Shown in pieces: positions 36,404 through 46,660 of a stretch of DNA of 64,000 bases. How positions within the stretch are numbered: the first letter of the stretch is position 1; each line of letters starts with the position of its first letter. The position numbers and the translations under genes were made by a program. The notes beneath the pieces were generated by a model. It did no database searches. It was not told the DNA's origin and saw only the letters and a program-made list of their open reading frames with translations. Source of the stretch: Pleurocapsa sp. FMAR1 (GTDB taxonomy: Bacteria; Cyanobacteriota; Cyanobacteriia; Cyanobacteriales; Xenococcaceae); assembly GCF_963665995.1 (NCBI RefSeq), contig NZ_OY762512.1:3782001-3846000 (forward strand), written 5' to 3'.

Positions 36404-36544
36404 TTGGCGTTGCTGATCAAGTAATGTCGTACAAAGGATGACTGTTGGTAGCTCTAAGCTCTAAGCTCTAAGCTTTTAAGAAACCATCACTACTTAATAA
36501 ATAAGCTAAATATACTTTTAGCATTACACATTCAGCAACGCCAA
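36404..36544. repeat. MITE-like element with 13-bp terminal inverted repeats
   Basis: TTGGCGTTGCTGA at 36404-36416 and its exact complement TCAGCAACGCCAA at 36532-36544 bound 141 bp without an ORF. Inside is a heptamer tandem (AGCTCTA repeated three times near 36450-36470). A further ATTCAGCAACGCCAAAA lies at 35491-35507 upstream of the Crp-type gene, so the terminus is repeated in the window. Confidence 0.65.
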
Positions 36545-36553
36545 AAAATTAAT

Positions 36554-37345
36554 TTAAGACAAAACTTTTGGCTCTAAATCTTTGAGTGCAGGAGCTTGAA
36601 TTACCTTCCCTTGGCAGGTGAAACGTCCCCCATGACAAGGACAGTCCCAACTTTTTTCAGCACTGTTCCAGTTAACAATACAGCCAAGATGAGGACAAGT
36701 AGCATTGACCGCTGTTACTTTACCTGCTTCATCTTTATAAACCCCGACTTTTTCGCCTTGGAGAGTAATTATTTTTCCCTCACCTGGTTTGACATCATCG
36801 GTAGACCAGTTTTGGATGCCTTTAAGCCTATCTCCTACCCAGTGCATTCCCACATCTAAATTATTGTTTTTAATCGATTCTTTGGTTACAAAAGGCGTAG
36901 CTCGAAGTGAATCGTATAAATCAGCCCAAGGGTTTTCTTTTCCCTGTACTAAATCAGCTAAAATCATGCCCGCCATGGTGCCTTTACTCATACCCCAAAG
37001 ACTAAAGCCTGTGGCTACATAAATATGTTCGTTTACAGGAGTCAACTTGCCAATATAGGGAAGTTGGTCAAAAGATTTGTAATCTTGACTTGACCAACGA
37101 TAGTCGATTTTATCGATGCCAAAATGAGAATGGGCGTAGCTTTCTAATTGTTGATAGGATTCCTCTGTTTCGCTTTTCTCTCCGACTTTATGACTACCAC
37201 CACCAATTAGCAGTAGCAAGCCTCCATCCTCAGTGGGAGTAGTACGAATTGAGTGATAGTTTTTACCTACGCCAATATACATTCCTTCAGGTGCTTTTTC
37301 TGGATTAATCTTGGCACCAATAATGTAAGAACGTTGAGGAAAAGT
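36554..37345 (-). pseudogene. C-terminal part (piece 3) of a split FAD-dependent oxidoreductase with Rieske domain
   Basis: The open frame runs from the junction codon at 37345 to TAA at 36554, about 263 codons, with no stop. It starts TFPQRSYIIGAKINPEKAPEG, continues with FAD-oxidoreductase elements (HIYVATGFSLWGMSKGTMAG) and ends with a Rieske [2Fe-2S] domain: CPHLGC and CPCHGGRF provide Cys-x-His and Cys-x-x-His ligands. An ATG at 37282 could start a shorter 242-residue product, but it would lack the FAD-binding Rossmann motif, which sits 8.6 kb away at 46.4 kb. Joined with the other two pieces it makes a 506-residue protein. Confidence 0.9.
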
Positions 37346-38140
37346 TTTCGCAAAAAGTTTCTCTACTTTGATAAAACACCGTACAGATAAAGGTTTAAGC
37401 GATTTAAGGAATTAGAGAAGTGCTATTTTCCTTTGCTTTTCCTTAGAACGAAGCCTAGACTTGACAATATACCTACTTTAGCATCCACTTTCGCTCCTTA
37501 GCTTTTCCTTAGAAAGTAATACAAATAAACTAAGTACATTTATACCTAATAAGCAATTAGAAAATAAAATCTAATTTTGTCTCTATATAGGCGGTTTTTT
37601 TAACTTAAGCGTCTGTTTGACAGACCCTATAGTGGACTATAGATGTTTCAGATAAAAACGTACTTTTTAGTATGTTTATATTCCTGAAACGTAATATGAA
37701 TCGCAATACGATTCTCAGGTACGTCTACGCTTCTTGCGTTTTGACTTCTAGCTTTACTCAAGCAGGATTATTGAAAGCTGCTGTAGCAGATGTGAAACTA
37801 GGTCGCTGTAGATGTTGAGGTAAGAGTAAGAATTAAAGCTTGAGTACGTATCTGAGAATCATAGTACGATTCGTACTACGATTTAGGAAGGTGCAGATAC
37901 TTAGCAGTATTTTGGTTAGTTTAAATCTAAAGAATCGATGTTATTTCGTAGGTATTCATTTCGCTTCTTATCTGAAGAGATAGACCTAGTTTATCTGTGT
38001 CTAATTTGGCTATTTAGACAGTAGAAAGCTTGATTAGTTACCAATGGTTAGTAGACACCAATCAAGCCTTATTTTGATGTATTTATGTGTGATCGAAACT
38101 ATCAGCTAGATTATCTATTTTCAGCCTGATTACTGATAGA
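37346..38140. other. Non-coding end of the integrated element, candidate replication origin region
   Basis: About 0.8 kb without a supportable ORF. ACGATTCTCAGGTACGT at 37708-37724 is matched in reverse complement, 15 of 17 bases, at 37846-37862. Immediately after lies the palindrome TAGTACGATTCGTACTA (37862-37878). Rolling-circle initiators nick at hairpin origins near their gene, so this is a reasonable place for the double-strand origin, but no nick motif is recognised. Confidence 0.4.
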
Positions 38141-39120
38141 TTAATTCTCAATTAATGAGTATACGGTATTCAAAAATTTACTCCAGAAAAGTAGCTGTTT
38201 AGTTCTTTCTATGGTATTGTTTTTTGGAGACACACCTGCAATTTTAAGTCTAAAATCTATTTTGCCAAGAGCAGCGTTAAGTAAAGCCTTTTGGATATCT
38301 TTTGTAGGTAGACTACCGCTATCATTTTCTTTGCTTAAGTCAGCTAACTTATTAAATAACTTTTGTGCTTTATTCTGCTTTAATTCTGCTTCCCATCTGT
38401 ATGTATTTTTGTTTTTTTTGTAGACTCTGACGTATGTTGAGAACGTCTAGAACCTATTCCTAAAGTACCTGACCAACCTTGATTAGTTAGCTTTAGATAT
38501 TGTTTGTCTGGCTTATCGAAGCCAAAGTGATTACCTTCTTGACGGGCTTCTACTATCTGAGGTACTGGGAATAGTTCTTTAGAAGAAGTAGAGGTAGCTA
38601 CGTCTATACGGTGGCATTTAAGCTTCCAATTACTGTTTAGGTAGTTTATTAACTTCGTCTGTTCTAGTAGGCTTAAATTGGCGAAATAAGAGCCTGAAAG
38701 TTGAATCATGATGTCATAGACGTATCTGGTATTTATACCCCTGTATTTGGCTTTTTTAGTGTAGCCTAAGATTATTCCTGATTTGGATTCTATTGTGTAA
38801 TTGTATTTTTTACTTCTAGGCATACCGTCGTCAAGATGCCAAGGCTTATTAATAGTTTTAGAATCTCTTTCTGAGAAGAAAAGATGTTTAAGTCTATTGA
38901 AAGATTTCTTTGTTAATTCGTTACTAGAAACACGAAGATAATCTAAGTGAATTAGAAATACTTTTAGAGGAAAAGGGGAGTCTAGTAGAAGAGGTAAAAG
39001 AGAGTTAAAGCTATTAGTAGAAAGAGGTAGAGTATTACGAAGGGATAGCGGGGTATTACTAAAGCTTTTTTGAGTAGCAGAAAATTGATGGTTGCTATTT
39101 TCGTTATTTGGATTTATCAT
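38141..39120 (-). pseudogene. Rolling-circle replication initiator (Rep_trans/RstA-like), 2-nt frameshift
   Basis: The ATG at 39120 opens a frame with family features: VFLIHLDYLRVSS near the start, KYRGINTRYVYDIMIQLSG, CHRIDVATS (the conserved R-x-D strand) and GTLGIGSRRSQ. The frame then shifts. Two bases (CA near 38439) must be skipped to read on as YVRVYKKNKNTYRWEAELKQ, exactly the conserved C-terminal block, to TAA at 38141-38143. The corrected product is about 325 residues, a normal length for phage or plasmid Rep_trans proteins, which nick DNA through a Tyr to start rolling-circle replication. As read it stops early at 38380, so it is probably inactive. Confidence 0.8.
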
Positions 39121-39467
39121 TTTGCTTAAGAGAGAAAGTTAGTCTTGTTTGACAAGGCTTCTTTTTTTTTGCCTGTCGATACCTGTTTAGTATCTTTGTT
39201 CTGTTTTATCCTAAGCTTCAAAAATAGTGCAAAAGAAATATAGCTAGTTACAAGTTGCCTACTTAGCTGTTGAAAAGTTTGTGAGTAGGTACGCTGGTTG
39301 ACTGACAAAAGATGAAGAGAAAAACCTGAGAATAGAGATTCAGTAAAGAGTTGAGGGATTGACACAAAGCAAGGGGAGTCAGCACTCTGAGATTAGATAC
39401 CACTCATAATTTCAGAATACTGTGAATCAAAACTCCCGTCTCTACAATGCCTTGAATCAATGAATGA

Positions 39468-40130
39468 GTCAATAGAAGTTTGAAGACAGAAGTATGAAGG
39501 CGCGAAGTTTCAAGTTTGTTCGAGGGCTTGTACCTCATACGAAGGAAGAAGTTTGAAGGCGAACGAAGTTTGAAGTTTGAAGTTTGAAGTTTGAAGGAAG
39601 AAGGAATTCGGAATTCGGGAAGGATTTTTTGTAGCTCATACCTCACACCTCATACTTCGCGCCTTCATACCTCATACACAGGGCTATCGCCCAGATCGTC
39701 CGTCCTTCGGACGACTTCGATGCTTCGCATCGTGTAGGGCGAAGCCCTGGTACCTCTACCAAACTAAGAGCGATCGTGAACGACGGGGCTTGCAACTATA
39801 GTGGAACAAAGGACTTGTCCGCATGTAGGAGGAAGTAGCTGTTTACGAAGTTTGAAGGAAGAAGTTTGAAGGAAGAAGGAAGAAAGATTTTTTGTACCTC
39901 ATACGAAGGAAGAAGTAGCTGTTTTACTTCATACTTCATACCTCATACTTCATACTTCATGCAGCTGTTTTACTTCATACACGGACTCTCTGTCCGTCGC
40001 CGTTCCCAAGGAGACGTCGGAACGCAGAGAGCGTTCACCTCACACTTCGCGCCACAGGGCTATCGCCCAGATCGTCCGTCCTTCGGACGACTTCGATGCT
40101 TCGCATCGTGTAGGGCGAAGCCCTGGTCAA
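39468..40130. repeat. Long repeat composite, copy 1, flanked by GTCAA
   Basis: Nearly identical to 40681-41312. It starts with AGAAGTTTGAAGACAGAAG, has many GAAGTTT heptamers and CATACCTCATACTTC runs, and contains two copies (39674-39744 and 40055-40125) of a 71-bp palindrome that begins CAGGGCTATCGCCC and ends GGGCGAAGCCCTG. GTCAA occurs at 39468-39472 and 40126-40130. This copy has extra GAAGTTT units, so it is about 31 bp longer. Confidence 0.9.
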
Positions 40131-40680
40131 GCTACTGACTGGTTACATTTATGTCATCTTCAAACTTGTATTTGGATGATAATTGCTTTAATACACACGG
40201 GCAATGTCAACCTGACAAAATGGTCGATGTACATCCCTGGTCGAGGGAAGTTGGCTGGGGGTAGACAGAGACGTATTCAGCGTTGGCTAAACAATCCTCG
40301 AATCAATGTCCATCGAATCAGAAAGTCCTTGGTCAAAGCAGCACTTGATGATTGGTCAGAATCAAAAATATTTTTGGCATTAGACACTTCACTGTTCTGG
40401 GATGAGTATTGCCTTGTGCGGCTTTGGGTTATTCATCGAGGGAGAGCTTTACCGTTGGTGTGGAGAGTGATGAACCATGAAAGTGCTAGTATTTCAGTTA
40501 CCGATTATCGAGAGATGATTAAGCAGGCACAAGTTAGGCTACGAGAATCAGTTAAGGTAATTTTACTCGCGGAGCGAGGATTTATACATACCGAATTGAT
40601 GACCATGCTGACAACTCAACTAGGATGGCATTATCGTCTCCGAATTAAGAGTAATACCTGGATTTGGCGTGGAAGTTGGT

Positions 40681-41312
40681 GTCAACAGAAGTTTGAAGAC
40701 AGAAGTATGAAGGCGCGAAGTTTCAAGTTTGTTCGAGGGCTTGTACCTCATACGAAGGAAGAAGTTTGAAGTTTGAAGGAAGAAGGAATTCGGAATTCGG
40801 GAAGGATTTTTTGTAGCTCATACCTCACACCTCATACTTCGCGCCTTCATACCTCATACACAGGGCTATCGCCCAGATCGTCCGTCCTTCGGACGACTTC
40901 GATGCTTCGCATCGTGTAGGGCGAAGCCCTGGTACCTCTACCAAACTAAGAGCGATCGTGAACGACGGGGCTTGCAACTATAGTGGAACAAAGGACTTGT
41001 CCGCATGTAGGAGGAAGTAGCTGTTTACGAAGTTTGAAGGAAGAAGTTTGAAGGAAGAAGGAAGAAAGATTTTTTGTACCTCATACGAAGGAAGAAGTAG
41101 CTGTTTTACTTCATACTTCATACCTCATACTTCATACTTCATGCAGCTGTTTTACTTCATACACGGACTCTCTGTCCGTCGCCGTTCCCAAGGAGACGTC
41201 GGAACGCAGAGAGCGTTCACCTCACACTTCGCGCCACAGGGCTATCGCCCAGATCGTCCGTCCTTCGGACGACTTCGATGCTTCGCATCGTGTAGGGCGA
41301 AGCCCTGGTCAA
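40681..41312. repeat. Long repeat composite, copy 2, flanked by GTCAA
   Basis: The second copy of the composite, in direct orientation. Its 71-bp palindromes are at 40861-40931 and 41237-41307, and GTCAA flanks it at 40681-40685 and 41308-41312. Removal restores the IS4 transposase frame between SWCQ and PKNFHF. Confidence 0.9.
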
Positions 41313-41895
41313 CCTAAAAACTTTCACTTTCATTTAGCAGAGGCAATTTGCTTACACAACGTACAGATTCACAAAGGTGAATTTTCTGGCAAAGTTCATG
41401 TGATTCTTGGTCGCAACAACGTTAACGGCGAACTATGGGCAATTGTCAGTAATGAAAAAACTACTCTACAAACCTTTGCTGAATATGGATTACGTTTTGA
41501 TATCGAAGCGAATTTTTTAGATGACCAATCTGGTGGTTGGAATGTTCAACGCTCGATGATTCGAGATGTATGCGCTTTGTCCCGTTTGTGGTTTATCTTA
41601 TCTGTGGCTACTCTCTACGTTAGTGCCCAAGGTGTTGAGGTAGTTCGTATTGGCAAACGAAGATGGGTTGATACTCATTGGTTTCGTGGTAATAGCTATT
41701 TTAGGATTGGTTGGGATTGGGTCAAAGCTGCACTCATTAATGGTTGGAATTTACTTCATTGCGTGACTTTCTCTAGTAATCAAGATCCCTCACCTGCAAT
41801 GGCATCACGATCGCAATATCAAAAACGAGCAGATCAGTTGGAGTTCAAAGTTTTAACTTATTCCTACAATATTTCTTGAAAGTTTTGTCAGTCAA

Positions 41896-42646
41896 TCAGG
41901 ATTCAAACAGTTTGTTAAACAACATAAAGATAAGACACAACAGCAAATGGCAGATTTGTGGGGAGAGAATCTTACCCAGCAAAATATTAGTGATGGAATT
42001 AAAAAGTTAGGCATAACCAGAAAAAAAGCGGTCAGACCCCGCGTCGCCGACAGGCGCAAGACAAAGGGCTTGCCCGCATGTACGCTGACCAAGACAAACT
42101 TACGGGTATCAAGAAACAGATGAAGAGAAAAGAAAAGAATTTCAAGAGCAACTAAAACATCAACAGGCAAATAACCTAGTTTATGTGGATGAAGTAGGAT
42201 TCGATAACCGAGACGATTATCCCTATGGTTATAGCCCCAAAGGAGAAAGATGTTAGGCACTCAAATCTGGTAAAAGAAATGAGAGAGTAAGTTGGATTGC
42301 TGCATTCAAAGAAGGAAAAGTGTTTGCTCCGTTAACTTTTGAAGGGTCATGTAATCGAGATTTATTTGAGACATGGCTTAAAGAAAGTTTGATTCCTCAA
42401 CTTCAACCTGGAAATATCATTATTATTGATAATGCTACTTTTCATAAAGGACAAAGTATTCAAGAAATAGTAGAAGAAGCAGGGTGCCAGATTTGGTATT
42501 TGCCCTCTTATTCTGCCGATCTAAACAAGATAGAGCGTTGGTGGTCGGTTCTCAAAACTTGGATGAAGCAGAGAGTTAAAGAATTTGAGACTGTTAGAGA
42601 ATGTGTTGATACAGCTTTCAAAAAATGTCCTAACGTATATGCGTAA
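41896..42646 (+). pseudogene. IS630-family transposase remnant
   Basis: The 5' end (helix-turn-helix region) is missing, cut at the IS4 end. Reading FKQFVKQHKDKTQQQMADLW and KKLGITRKK, it is then interrupted by a 67-nt palindromic repeat that shifts frame. It continues as TYGYQETDEEKRKEFQ, then SPKGERC, TAG (probably an old CAG codon) and ALKSGKRNERVSW to the stop at 42646. The DDE triad is visible: VYVDEVGF, IIIIDNATFH and NKIERWW. So there are three separate lesions: truncation, repeat insertion and nonsense. IS630 elements insert at TA, but no intact ends were found. Confidence 0.82.
42028..42094. repeat. GC-rich palindromic repeat inside the IS630 transposase
   Basis: It starts GCGGTCAGACCCCGCGTCG and ends GCTGACCAAGA, the same ends as the copy at 34642-34691, with an inner AAAGGGCTTGCCCGCATGTA phrase also found near 20.1 and 39.8 kb. 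Its length is not a multiple of three, so it breaks the frame. Confidence 0.88.
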
Positions 42647-42818
42647 TGCTATAAGTATGAGTAAGTAGCTATGATTTATGTTTAGTTGGCTAATATTGGC
42701 AAATAGCGTTAGCTGATAGTTAGAACAATAAAAAACGCCTCACCAAGGTGCGAGACGTTCAGGAACTATGACTAGTCTATTTTAACTGAAGCCCAGTCAA
42801 AAGATTGACTGTTAGTTA

Positions 42819-44300
42819 TTATTTTCGATTCTTATTTTCGGCGATAGCTTCGTACATTTTGAGCTTGGTTCGCAGTAGTTCAATTTCATTATCTTTAGAT
42901 AGTAATTGAGCTTTCAGAGAGGCGTTTTCTGTTTTAAATACTTTTAACTGAGAGCGGTTTTCTTGTTGTTGGTTTGATGCTTTGAGAAGATTGGCAAGCT
43001 TAGTTTCAAGCTTCATGTATTGCACATAGTTATTGCCACTCATCCTTAAAGAGTGTCCACTACTATCAGCCAAAGCTTTAGGATTGTAACCAAGTACATG
43101 ACCACGTATAGAGTAAGCGTGGCGCAAGTCATGGGCTTTGAAGCCATACCCTTTTTTGTTAAACCATTTAGCCGTTTTACTAGTGCCTTTGCTGCAAGAC
43201 TGATTTTCCCCCATTCTCTTCATAGGATTTTCGATATCAGGTAGATTTAGAGGCTGTAAAAGGTTAAACTCTTTTATCCAGTCATGACCTTCAGGGGATA
43301 TAGGTAAGGTCATTCTAAAGCCAGTTTTAGTATCGTGCTTAATGCACAAAATGTGGTTTTTGTTGCTGAGGTCGAGAATAGCGGGAATTACTTCATTTTT
43401 GCCCTCGTGCTGTACTGATATTTCTTCATCAATGCCTACATCTACTGTTACCCAGTCACCATCTTTTAGAGTTACTGGTTTATCCCAGTTAGCTATGTGC
43501 CAAGCTTCATGTATTCTCAATCCATAGGTAGCTAGCAAGCCGAATAAGAACTGCCATTGTGAATAGCGATGAAGCCATTTTTTTTGAGCATTATAAGCTG
43601 GTGCAAACCCTTTTGAGTATACTTCCATGATTCGCCTATCTGTAGGCACATTAAGCGGTTTGGGCTTGACCTTATTATTTCTCCTGTAGTCTTCAATGAG
43701 TGCCTTGTGTCCTTCAATTTCAAAAAATCCTAAAAGATTTGTCAACCCGTTCAGTACCTCCTTTCTGCTGGCTGAATTGCTCTTTGTTGATTCAATAGTT
43801 TGTTTGATTAGAGATGAAGATAGAGGCTTATTGTCAACAGCAGCAGCCTTTTCTAACCTGCTGTACATTTTATACCATCCATTCTCAGGCGTTTTGTTGT
43901 CTTTCCTTTGCTTGAAGTAATGCTTCTTGTACTGCTCTAGCATCTCTTTGCAGGTTAGCTGCTTAGTCTGTTCAGAGGTATCCTTACCTATCTGCTGATT
44001 GAACCAAGTCAAGTCGAACCTACCTGCCATTAGTTGACCTGTTACCAACCCAGCTATCCTCTCAGCTTCGAGTATACCTTTGGGACTAGCACCAATAGCT
44101 CCTAAGCCTAAGTTCTTTTGCGAGTTATCTTTGCCGTCATGATAAGTGAACCGAATTGTTAAAGAGCCGTTCTTAGCAGCAATCGTTGCTCTCTTGCCTT
44201 GTCTGCCTATCTGCTTGAGCCTAGCGTTAGCTGCCTCTACTAATTGAGGTATATGGTATCCACCGTCGTTAGGTAGTTGCTCAGATACTAGTTTAGCCAT
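42819..44300 (-). CDS. Tyrosine site-specific recombinase (integrase) of the element
   Basis: A 493-residue recombinase with an intact frame. The catalytic set is R262 (ATYGLRIHEAW), a Lys in the TKTGFRM beta hairpin, H390 and R393 (KAHDLRHAYSIRG), H416 (DSSGHSLRM) and nucleophile Y425 (GNNYVQYMK). The C-terminal 50 residues form a coiled coil (KTENASLKAQLLSKDNEIELL). The N-terminal 120 residues probably bind arm or core sites. It lies 86 bp inside one att junction and points inward, the usual place for the integrase of an integrative element. It should catalyse integration into, and possibly excision from, the FAD/Rieske gene. The hairpin CAGTCAAAAGATTGACTG lies just past its stop. Confidence 0.92.
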   Translation of the reverse strand: MAKLVSEQLPNDGGYHIPQLVEAANARLKQIGRQGKRATIAAKNGSLTIRFTYHDGKDNSQKNLGLGAIGASPKGILEAERIAGLVTGQLMAGRFDLTWFNQQIGKDTSEQTKQLTCKEMLEQYKKHYFKQRKDNKTPENGWYKMYSRLEKAAAVDNKPLSSSLIKQTIESTKSNSASRKEVLNGLTNLLGFFEIEGHKALIEDYRRNNKVKPKPLNVPTDRRIMEVYSKGFAPAYNAQKKWLHRYSQWQFLFGLLATYGLRIHEAWHIANWDKPVTLKDGDWVTVDVGIDEEISVQHEGKNEVIPAILDLSNKNHILCIKHDTKTGFRMTLPISPEGHDWIKEFNLLQPLNLPDIENPMKRMGENQSCSKGTSKTAKWFNKKGYGFKAHDLRHAYSIRGHVLGYNPKALADSSGHSLRMSGNNYVQYMKLETKLANLLKASNQQQENRSQLKVFKTENASLKAQLLSKDNEIELLRTKLKMYEAIAENKNRK

Positions 44301-44385
44301 TCCTTAGTTTTTCCCTAAAACGTACTGCGTATTATGTTTATAGAAGGCTCAAAGCCTATGAATAGTAGGATAGCATAGTAAAGGT

Positions 44386-44626
44386 AGTTTTTTCAAAAAA
44401 CAGCCCTTGATCCATAATCGGCAAATGAGTTGTCAACAGTACCTCAGTAGCCTGCAAAATAGTATTGTTGGCGGATACTGTACAGGGTGTTCCTTCTTCT
44501 ACGCTTTGCACTCGACTATCTTCAAAGATATAGCTGCCATCACCAGGAATAGTATTAGCTAGGTGTAAAAGATACTTGCGAACATGAAATTGAGCCTGAT
44601 TGGTAAACCTAACTGCACCTGCAATC
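44386..44626 (-). pseudogene. Middle part (piece 2) of the split FAD/Rieske oxidoreductase
   Basis: Lies between the IS4 copy and the integrated element. It reads IAGAVRFTNQAQFHVRKYLL, HLANTIPGDGSYIFEDSRV and LLTTHLPIMDQGLFFEKT without a stop, in frame with piece 1 across the IS and with piece 3 across the element. This is the central substrate/FAD-domain region of DAO-type oxidoreductases. A chance ATG inside the IS end would give a 95-residue ORF, which is not a real gene. Confidence 0.92.
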
Positions 44627-44657
44627 CTGGCTGCCTGACACATTTATTTGAGGACAG

Positions 44658-45880
44658 TTAAACTCTTAAGCACTTTAATTCCGAAATTCTGATAAACGAA
44701 ATGGCATCATAGTATTTTCTTCTAGCCTTTGAAGATGCAAAACAGGGCAAAGTATTTTGAGAAAATAAAGGTGTAGGGTCAAACAAACTACGACCTTTAT
44801 GTAAAACTCCTTTGAGCCATCTGATCCCAATTTTGAGATAACTTAAACCTCTCTCCCAATGCCGATCTACTTGACTTCTAAGTCCCTTCAATTGAACTGT
44901 CATGCCATGAGTAGTCGCAAATAAAAGTGCTAAGGCTACCACCAAATATAAACGTTCCAATGCCTTGCGATCGCGACCTCGACAGTCCCTTCAACGCGGG
45001 AAACCCGCGCAACGGGCTGTCTGGCAATTTTAGATTCTTCCAATTGAAAAGCTCCAGATTTAGAATCTAAAAATAATTCTTCAATACGAAATCTTAGAGC
45101 CTACTGCCATAAAGCTTGTAGAGTCGGGTCTTCATCAGTAATAACAGCCCAAGGTTCTTTTGTCCCCTTGACATTGGCTAAGACAAAGTTGCTTCGGCAT
45201 TCTCCATCGAGCCATAGTCCAACATTGTGATACAAAATCGCCTCTGACTTTGGCGGATAAAGATATTTCAGTTCAATAGGATGTCTCCTTGCCCCCTGAA
45301 TAGTTACGTCACAGGGTAAGCGTAGACAATAGTGCCATTGACTAGTGGTGAGCCAATTCATCAACTGATGGTTGGCAAAACCTCGGTCAGCTAGAAGCAT
45401 CTCATCAGGATACTTGCGGAGTAATCTACGTGAAAATTTCAGCATGGTTTTGTATTCTTTGAATGCTACTGTTGAACTTTTATGTTCCATTACTTTCCAT
45501 AAGAAAGGAATTGCCCTACCACCACAAATCACAGAAAGATGAATCATGCAGTATCGATTCCATAAAACTGTTGTATCCAGTGCCAGATAGAGGCGTTGTC
45601 CACTCCAGTTACTAATTGCCGCCATTACTAGAGGTACATACAAAGATTTGACTTTAATTCGACTGTTATGAACGAATCTTTGCCATCTTCGCTCAATACT
45701 CTGTGCTTGGTTCGCCCTACTTATCACGTAAGATTCCCACTCACTAAGGTTAATTTTGCTGCTACATATCAGCGCGTTGATCATCCAAGCTAACGCTTTG
45801 ATCTGCCTGAAATCTCTGTATGTGGAATCTTGACTCAGTAGACTCAGCAGTTGATGATAAAGAGGGGTAGATCTTGACAT
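44658..45880 (-). pseudogene. IS4-family transposase, nonsense codon plus repeat insertion
   Basis: From the ATG at 45880: DDE features LALDTTVLWNRYC and MLLADRGFANHQLM. Then TAG follows PTLQALWQ exactly where the conserved Tyr of the Y-(2)-R-(3)-E signature should be (next residues ALRFRIEELFLD). The frame then meets a GC-rich palindrome (44981-45021) between EESKIAR and ALERLYLVVALALLF, and the C-terminus continues in a separate frame to 44658. It is homologous to the transposase at 39.5-41.9 kb. Two lesions, so an active enzyme would have to come from another copy. Confidence 0.87.
44981..45021. repeat. Nested GC palindrome inserted in the IS4 transposase
   Basis: GACAG at 44981-44985 pairs with CTGTC at 45017-45021 and encloses the hairpin CGCGGGAAACCCGCG. 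It is similar to the inner hairpin of the repeat at 59914-59953 (GTTGGGAAACTCGCCCAAC). Confidence 0.85.
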
Positions 45881-45987
45881 GGAATATAAGGCTAAAACTA
45901 TTCATTTTCAGCTTCCCATAATTGCTCTACCTTTTCTTTTTTCTGACCGCATTTCGACTCTTTTAGCTACTTGTGTCAGGCAGCCAG

Positions 45988-46487
45988 CCTGCAATCTCAA
46001 AAGGCAAAGTAGTGTCACTGACAAAATGAGCAGGAAGACCTAACTTAACTGCTGCATCATATTCTTTTTGAACCTTGTCTAGATTGTCTTTCTTCTCAGC
46101 AAAGCTATAAGTATCGTTGCGTTGAAAATCGCAGTCTATTCCCTCTTCTTGTAGCGTTGAGGCAACAAACTCCACTCCCGCCTGATTTGATTCACCATAG
46201 AGTCTGGCTTTATCTTCACCGATTTTATCAATCAGATCTGCATAAATAAGCTGATGTAGAGAGGTAACTTTAGCAGTAGTATGTCCGCTAGCGCTGGCTG
46301 CTATGTGTTCTGCTTCAATTAGGGCGACGGTTTTTCCTGCTTTTTTAAGTAAATATGCTGCGGTAATACCTGTAATACCTGCGCCAATAATAGCAACATC
46401 AACGGTTACATTTTCAATTTTGGGAAAGCTTGTTTTGGCAGTAGAATCTAACCAAAAAGAAATAGGTTTCCCTGATAAAGTTGTCAT
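45988..46487 (-). pseudogene. N-terminal part (piece 1) of the split FAD/Rieske oxidoreductase
   Basis: The likely start is the ATG at 46487 (MTTLSGKPISFWLDSTAK). The FAD-binding Rossmann motif is VDVAIIGAGITGITAAYLLKKAGKTVALIEAE, interrupted here only for quoting length. HIAASASGHTTAKVTS follows, typical of DAO/glycine-oxidase-like enzymes. The native frame ends at FEIAGG where the IS4 copy begins. As present it would stop inside the IS after SS, giving a 174-residue FAD-domain fragment. A promoter for the original gene should lie upstream of 46487. Confidence 0.92.
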
Positions 46488-46591
46488 AATATTCAAGAAA
46501 TAAAGAGTATTTGATTATTTTAAGTTTAGATAATTCATTTATTCTATCTCTATCTATCATGAGGTTGATTTGTATTTAATTAGCCTAAATC

Positions 46592-46660
46592 TTAAGCTGC
46601 ATTTTTCTAAAAAAAATGCAGCTTAAAAAACATAAATAGAGGCGATCGCCTCTATTTATG
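46592..46660. terminator. Two adjacent perfect hairpins
   Basis: TTAAGCTGCATTTTT at 46592-46606 pairs with the complementary arm ending at 46626, followed by A-rich sequence. It could terminate transcription on either strand. At 46631-46660 lies a perfect 30-bp palindrome centred on a HIP1 site, GAGGCGATCGCCTC. They separate the split oxidoreductase start from the convergent small membrane protein gene. Confidence 0.65.

Follow-up and report, generated by a model that had tools for sequence, protein, structure and literature searches.

In this study, we characterized an integrated element of the cyanobacterium Pleurocapsa sp. FMAR1 that pairs a tyrosine recombinase (integrase) with a gene of the Rep_trans family of rolling-circle replication initiators (Rep). 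The element extends from 37343 to 44399, core to core (~7.04 kb), in the 64,000-nucleotide stretch analyzed here (the window; contig NZ_OY762512.1, positions 3,782,001 to 3,846,000); the host genome is a single contig of 5.43 Mb. Our results indicate that this element is very probably an integrative rolling-circle plasmid that has decayed, and that the Rep module of such plasmids is paired with different integrases. Both halves are known already, and the pairing appears to be new. In the full-text literature, mostly papers outside subscription, we found no description of an XisA-related recombinase combined with a rolling-circle Rep, nor of one Rep module combined with three kinds of integrase.

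The element lies inside a metabolic gene, as an earlier note on this sequence had proposed. This gene, assigned by Pfam to a DAO/Rieske oxidoreductase, is found on the minus strand in three pieces, N-terminal (45988 to 46496), middle (44386 to 44626) and C-terminal (36554 to 37357), which match residues 3-174, 172-251 and 247-511 of a relative (L057). In four relatives (L057-L060) the gene is unbroken, with one open frame of 508-513 codons that continues across the element site. The element separates the middle and C-terminal pieces, and joining its flanks yields a frame that is open from the middle piece on. Both junctions carry the TTTTTG-nn-AAAACT core that had been noticed before. The rep-proximal copy (attR, 37343 to 37356), where the host gene resumes, reads TTTTTGCGAAAACT on the minus strand, and the integrase-proximal copy (attL, 44386 to 44399) reads TTTTTGAAAAAACT on the same strand. 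The two cores differ at their two central bases, CG on the rep side and AA on the integrase side. The CG would be as expected from the host gene, since the relatives have C and another base there. This mismatch could be a later mutation, or it could reflect a tolerance for mismatches in the overlap like that of the Vibrio elements discussed below.

The first two pieces of the oxidoreductase are parted near residue 174 by a separate insertion sequence (IS) of the IS4 type. This insertion of 1361 bp (44627 to 45987, minus strand) is bounded by perfect inverted repeats of 16 bp; its target site is duplicated over 9 bp, GATTGCAGG, with copies at 44618-44626 and 45988-45996. With two interruptions in the host gene, loss of the element by itself would not make the gene whole again, contrary to what had been expected from the sequence. 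Regulated, gene-restoring excision is thus not supported at this locus. A search of the host genome with the C-terminal piece found no further copy of the oxidoreductase at E ≤ 1e-60. The window contains no tRNA or tmRNA gene, and no Rfam family reached its gathering score within 36500-46600.

The integrase (493 amino acids, 42819 to 44300, minus strand) has an intact frame, and the distance from its start codon to the core at 44386 is 86 bp, exactly as first reported. All six residues of the R-K-H-R-H-Y signature of tyrosine recombinases are present (R262, K325, H390, R393, H416 and Y425). The Pfam match is weak (Phage_integrase, E 0.0064, under the family cut-off), and the PHROG match is to an integrase (1.2e-9). 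A profile of five integrase sequences matches the XerC-like recombinase structure 4a8e (1.2e-6), as well as 6emz and its kin, entries called Int protein (2.5e-4 to 5.3e-4). Searches with the window integrase gave three weak matches among plasmids (best E 1e-9) and, among named genomes, one locus in a metagenome-assembled genome (MAG) of Myxosarcina.

Near the other end, we found a frameshifted Rep gene (38144 to 39120, minus strand). Its open reading frame (ORF) runs from 39120 to 38380 (246 amino acids) and carries on in another frame to 38144. Alignment to intact relatives shows that the frame is lost shortly upstream of the catalytic tyrosine motif. Moreover, the acidic motif DVAIDDYS is replaced by DVATSTSS, with loss of the acidic pair. 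Both motifs have established roles in Rep proteins. The intact relatives carry the acidic motif RxDxAIDD and the tyrosine motif RVY or RIY in one frame, in contrast to the window copy. Pfam recognized no family at E ≤ 1 in the 246-residue ORF, and the piece in the second frame matched Rep_trans under the cut-off of 29.6 (E 0.088, 12.8 bits). Three intact relatives exceed this PF02486 cut-off, with 53.0, 44.1 and 30.3 bits (4.4e-14, 2.4e-11 and 4e-7). Therefore, the family assignment of the earlier note was right, and the window copy itself is a pseudogene of the Rep_trans family. Slippage at an A8 tract was considered as the source of the frameshift and rejected, because the frame changes before the tract is reached and the acidic motif has gone as well.

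In agreement with this assignment, the intact Reps match the PHROG replication initiation protein (4.6e-12 to 6e-4), and a Rep profile matches the solved plasmid-type initiators 4cij (9.7e-9) and 4cwc (0.014). The N-terminus of the window Rep gave a single match among plasmids (E 0.7), and a tblastn search with the intact Rep of locus L054 recovered 12 plasmids, of which three, of 2.2-2.6 kb, are cyanobacterial. The broken window Rep also had one PHROG match to a tail-sheath family (E 0.028), which we take as chance. This bears on a second suggestion of the earlier note, that the element is a satellite of filamentous phages comparable to RS1. RstA-like proteins are indeed Rep_trans members; the element has its own integrase, relatives are targeted to protein or tRNA genes, and apart from the tail-sheath match no PHROG structural family was recognized, though no search for dif sites was made. 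We regard a phage satellite as very improbable. The other description offered at first, a minimal integrative plasmid-like unit, agrees well with the layout: the integrase is near one end, the Rep_trans gene near the other, and long stretches are non-coding. Without its internal IS insertions, the element would measure roughly 3.8 kb.

The two ends of the element are conserved. The rep-proximal non-coding end (37357 to 38143) contains TTCCTTA/TAAGGAA repeats; it aligns with those of L055, L082 and L083, all with repeated TAAGGAA motifs, and a segment at about 37387-37532, in which these repeats lie, is common to the window and L055. The integrase-proximal end (44301 to 44385) contains a conserved arm-like stretch formed by TATGCTATnCT and TAAGGAATG; the latter is present in 6/6 aligned sequences and the former in most of them. 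In addition, a conserved stretch upstream of rep (39121 to 39270, minus strand) is a candidate control or origin region. Short ORFs of 73 codons (L082, reverse complement, from 10070) and 75 codons (L083, from 9791) were seen inside the rep-proximal end. They look unrelated to each other, and the longest window counterpart has 57 codons; a directionality factor might lie there.

Signs of movement come from a congener, G202. Its genome contains two units with integrase and Rep at different sites, 94.8% identical over 5012 bp. A third unit shares a common Rep module of 2998 bp (98.7-98.9% identity) and has a 470-residue integrase instead. Over 332 residues, the three Reps show no differences, and the two integrases of the 493-residue type are 84% identical. 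One unit (L082, 5407 bp core to core) splits a gene for a luciferase-like monooxygenase. Both of its junctions carry TCATGATAA, the joined flanks form one uninterrupted whole frame, and both halves are recognized by Pfam as Bac_luciferase (6.5e-29 and 5.3e-34). The N-terminal half as query found only itself, in 1/27 genomes of the host family. As no relative of this gene was found, the empty site is deduced from the frame, the Pfam matches and the core. The core of L083 is imperfect (11/14 bases by eye), and the SpoIID-type gene at this locus is a candidate for a split gene.

Other relatives occupy further sites. In G019, a dynamin-like gene (Pfam Dynamin_N) is split at TATGTGCGAGA. The gene reads through this site in 5/5 relatives, of which L110 has the same 11 core bases and four differ at 1-3. 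The element in this gene is a presumptive assembly, because G019:C94 and C21 are separate metagenome contigs. In G175, an integrase and an N-truncated Rep lie in dtd (Tyr_Deacylase), with 2286 bp between the landmarks used; at this site (L036) the core is weak, the C-terminus of dtd has decayed and an IS605-type gene is adjacent. Elements that combine the same kind of Rep with other integrases are found at tRNA genes. The one with the 470-residue integrase of G202 (L084) is located at a tRNA-Val gene with an exact duplication of 37 bp, and one with a 406-residue form of the integrase (L053) at a tRNA-Ser gene with a 60-bp duplication (87%). At L085, a tRNA-Arg gene is found near the Rep; no far duplicate was seen on this contig, which starts before the other end. 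Thus, the single attachment gene anticipated for the family was not found: relatives sit in the monooxygenase, the dynamin-like gene and dtd. Insertion of relatives at unrelated sites is one of the two findings that the earlier note had named as refuting its reading. Target choice of the XisA-related recombinase seems loose, because the core sequences differ between sites. As one Rep module is paired with at least three kinds of integrase, the replicating and integrating parts are, on the evidence of these sequences, exchanged between elements. This represents a clear case of such an exchange in small mobile elements.

We also surveyed the family in related genomes. The N-terminus of the window Rep matched 5 of the 195 genomes of the order (E ≤ 0.01), and a phylum-wide Rep search matched 2/386 genomes at E ≤ 1e-20, both of one genus. 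With a three-sequence Rep profile (E ≤ 0.001), we detected Rep in nine of the 27 host-family genomes, at 13 loci and in 14 rows, the window copy accounting for two. The integrase profile found 18/27 of these genomes at E ≤ 1e-15, in 53 rows, many of them weak or partial. At 9/13 Rep loci, the integrase gene is on the same contig as Rep, no more than about 6 kb away. By coordinates, the pairing is found in G000 (the window host), G175, G068, G120:C34 and three times in G202, and at G019:C21 and G120:C13 the Rep is paired with the different integrase of the 406-residue frame. At four Rep loci (G204:C178, G199:C17, G198:C133 and G198:C364), no integrase was recognized. Locus L035, a contig of G019, starts inside a Rep-like frame adjoining an integrase of the 493-residue type. 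The other refuting finding named in the earlier note, a lack of rep in all related elements, does not apply: rep is present in several, with conserved order and ends, and a family of such elements does exist. This also bears on the view that integrase and Rep are chance neighbors from separate insertions. The many IS insertions in the window copy would fit such a history; against it, order and ends are conserved in the relatives, and both genes belong to one repeated unit in G202. We find this view scarcely credible.

Several observations weigh against an integrative plasmid. The window copy is without a working Rep, the circular form is one that we infer from sequence, and consensus folding upstream of rep revealed no origin structure: a structured origin is unsupported, with a consensus energy of -6.03 and an unfavorable covariation term. 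Moreover, of the 19 strong family integrase matches (E < 1e-90), five have an adjacent Rep match and one further has a Rep start at the contig end. Four Rep queries found no Rep beside 11 others (L115-L125), an absence that is weak because 6/11 have less than 2.4 kb of sequence 3' of the integrase. The remaining two, G019:C7 at a contig end (L034, cut off inside an IS630 end) and G199:C219, are outside this count. Finally, Rep_trans also covers relaxases of conjugation, among them MobT, and membership in this family alone does not separate an initiator from a relaxase. The element might accordingly be an integrative mobilizable element, with a MobT-type relaxase and transfer by a helper. A small unit with a tyrosine integrase and a Rep_trans protein fits this description. 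On the other hand, the closest solved structures and plasmid matches are replication initiators, and the ORFs of at least 80 codons in the G202 units are the integrase, rep and one short ORF, the latter outside the family searches. We consider a mobilizable element improbable.

For the integrative plasmid that we favor, the following cycle can be proposed. In the intact relatives, the XisA-related recombinase would recombine a short core of the small circle with a short, similar stretch of a chromosomal gene. Because each end retains the core, the insertion could be reversed by the recombinase, which would lead to occasional excision. The free circle would then be nicked and copied by the Rep_trans protein. 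The sequences themselves show the unit with its ends and insertion sites, the near-identical copies at two sites of G202, the flanks that can be joined in frame and the exchange of integrases; we infer nicking by Rep, how excision is directed and controlled, and any transfer from cell to cell. The window copy is a fossil, in which the recombinase is open, the Rep is dead and IS elements have accumulated. It could perhaps still be excised by its own recombinase, and it should not replicate by its own Rep.

The IS elements inside the window copy are an IS4-type insertion (39468 to 41879, plus strand), with transposase pieces at 40176-40769 and 41400-41879, and an IS630-type remnant (41892 to 42646, plus strand); the outer ends of both are approximate. 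The IS4-type insertion includes two repeat units of ~0.64 kb (about 39468-40130 and 40681-41309), one of which lies inside the transposase gene. Their longest common stretch is 300 nt at 99%, and they are rich in GAAGTTT and CATACTTC runs and in palindromes. A frame similar to these repeats is found beside the same transposase end elsewhere in the host genome (L126 4250-5475, G000:C1 about 4.382 Mb). The same region (L126 6799-8208, about 4.385 Mb) contains an integrase 60% identical to the 470-residue integrase of G202, with no adjacent Rep. G003 has seven related integrase genes or pieces (L039-L041 and L044-L047). All of these except L046 have a common stretch of 41-56 bp right before the gene, and the copies resemble elements of about 1.6 kb that consist of an integrase only, with approximate far ends. 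By eye, the family integrases of L115 and L116 adjoin a helicase-like gene, a different cargo without Rep, and at L118 (1695-2189 and 2226-3677) an integrase gene lies directly beside a fragment that resembles a ComM/magnesium-chelatase-type ATPase gene, possibly another split gene.

Among known systems, small cyanobacterial Rep_trans plasmids (e.g. NZ_CP028096, 2.6 kb, of Synechocystis) share the Rep family with the window element (tblastn with the L054 Rep, 5e-10); they differ in being plasmids of 2.2-2.6 kb, whereas units of the window family carry an integrase and are found integrated. Integrative elements of Firmicutes with Rep_trans proteins, and the actinomycete integrative and conjugative elements (AICEs) of Actinobacteria, are likewise integrated units that combine an integrase with a protein of the rolling-circle type. 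Unlike in these elements, no transfer gene was recognized in the window family, and the likeness is one of composition. The strand-biased circularizing elements of Vibrio (SE-6945 and SE-6283) are alike by description: they use a tyrosine recombinase and loose T-rich targets, and their crossover stretch can differ between the two ends (PMC9345347). They differ in having two integrase genes and two further coding sequences, and the parts of that source available to us do not mention a Rep (PMC9345347).

The interruption elements of nifD and hupL provide the closest parallel for the integrase. The window integrase recovers the recombinases beside split nifD, hupL and nifH, so that the likeness to nifD and hupL elements seen at the outset is one of homology and not of form alone. 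Beside L030 and L032 there is a fragment of nitrogenase component 1 (1e-31), which we take to be nifD; beside L029, a NifH fragment (5.8e-54); and beside L031, a fragment of a [NiFe] hydrogenase large subunit (PDB 7utd, 1.9e-41), for which, as for a similar fragment at L033, Pfam and NCBIfam gave no match. These recombinases, presumably XisA and XisC from their genomic place, are distant homologues of the window integrase (25-27% identity across 433-493 columns, E 1e-26 to 1e-31). They form a clade of their own with support of 100/99 in a 32-row tree (without L015-L019 and L044-L047) and 100/100 in a 25-row tree, which holds 18 of the 53 family integrase matches, the other 35 being fragments, weaker or not included. 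In both trees, which have long branches, above all L054, the window integrase is outside this clade and groups with integrases of the host family. On the 25-row tree, the presence of Rep beside the integrase must have changed at least three times, even by well-supported branches; this count leans on no-rep labels weak at 6/11 loci, and 38 of 500 shuffles gave one as low. These changes may be gains or losses of Rep.

It is possible, though unlikely, that the window element is itself an interruption element of the XisA type, excised under control, with Rep as incidental cargo. The homology of the recombinases and the many family integrases with no Rep found adjacent speak for this, as does the position of the integrase at the element end inside a protein-coding gene, an arrangement also seen in a survey of interruption elements (Hilton et al., 2016; PMC4874684). 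In contrast, the trees separate the window integrase from that clade, the Rep module is found in one genome (G202) with another integrase as well, and the host oxidoreductase is broken a second time. According to that survey, tyrosine-type elements are confined to six ortholog groups, and all interrupted genes with no known function in nitrogen fixation have serine recombinases (Hilton et al., 2016). Thus, the window family resembles XisA and XisC elements in having a homologous tyrosine recombinase at the element end and a protein-coding gene split with a short core; it differs in its separate clade, its targets unrelated to nitrogen fixation and its rolling-circle Rep. In addition, XisA and XisC elements belong to heterocystous cyanobacteria, whereas the one named member of the window family comes from the Myxosarcina MAG. 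Myxosarcina is a non-heterocystous genus.

In the same survey, it is stated that when or how interruption elements originated is unclear, that they have been regarded as viral or phage remnants, and that changes inside them hamper linking them to their origin (Hilton et al., 2016). We tentatively propose, as a doubtful option, that the tyrosine-type elements of nifD and hupL and the integrative rolling-circle plasmids have a common mobile ancestor, the heterocyst elements having been domesticated with loss of the Rep module. The association of the Rep module with three kinds of integrase points to plasmids that acquired integrases, and the many integrases found without a Rep suggest that elements with an integrase only are old too. 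Either of the two could have come first, and the proposal is therefore kept at this low strength. If true, a plasmid stage would explain how the recombinase spread between genes, by excision, rolling-circle multiplication and re-insertion at loosely chosen sites. The family described here has a recombinase related to that of interruption elements, carries a plasmid replication gene and occurs as near-identical units at several sites; it thereby makes the origin of interruption elements testable.

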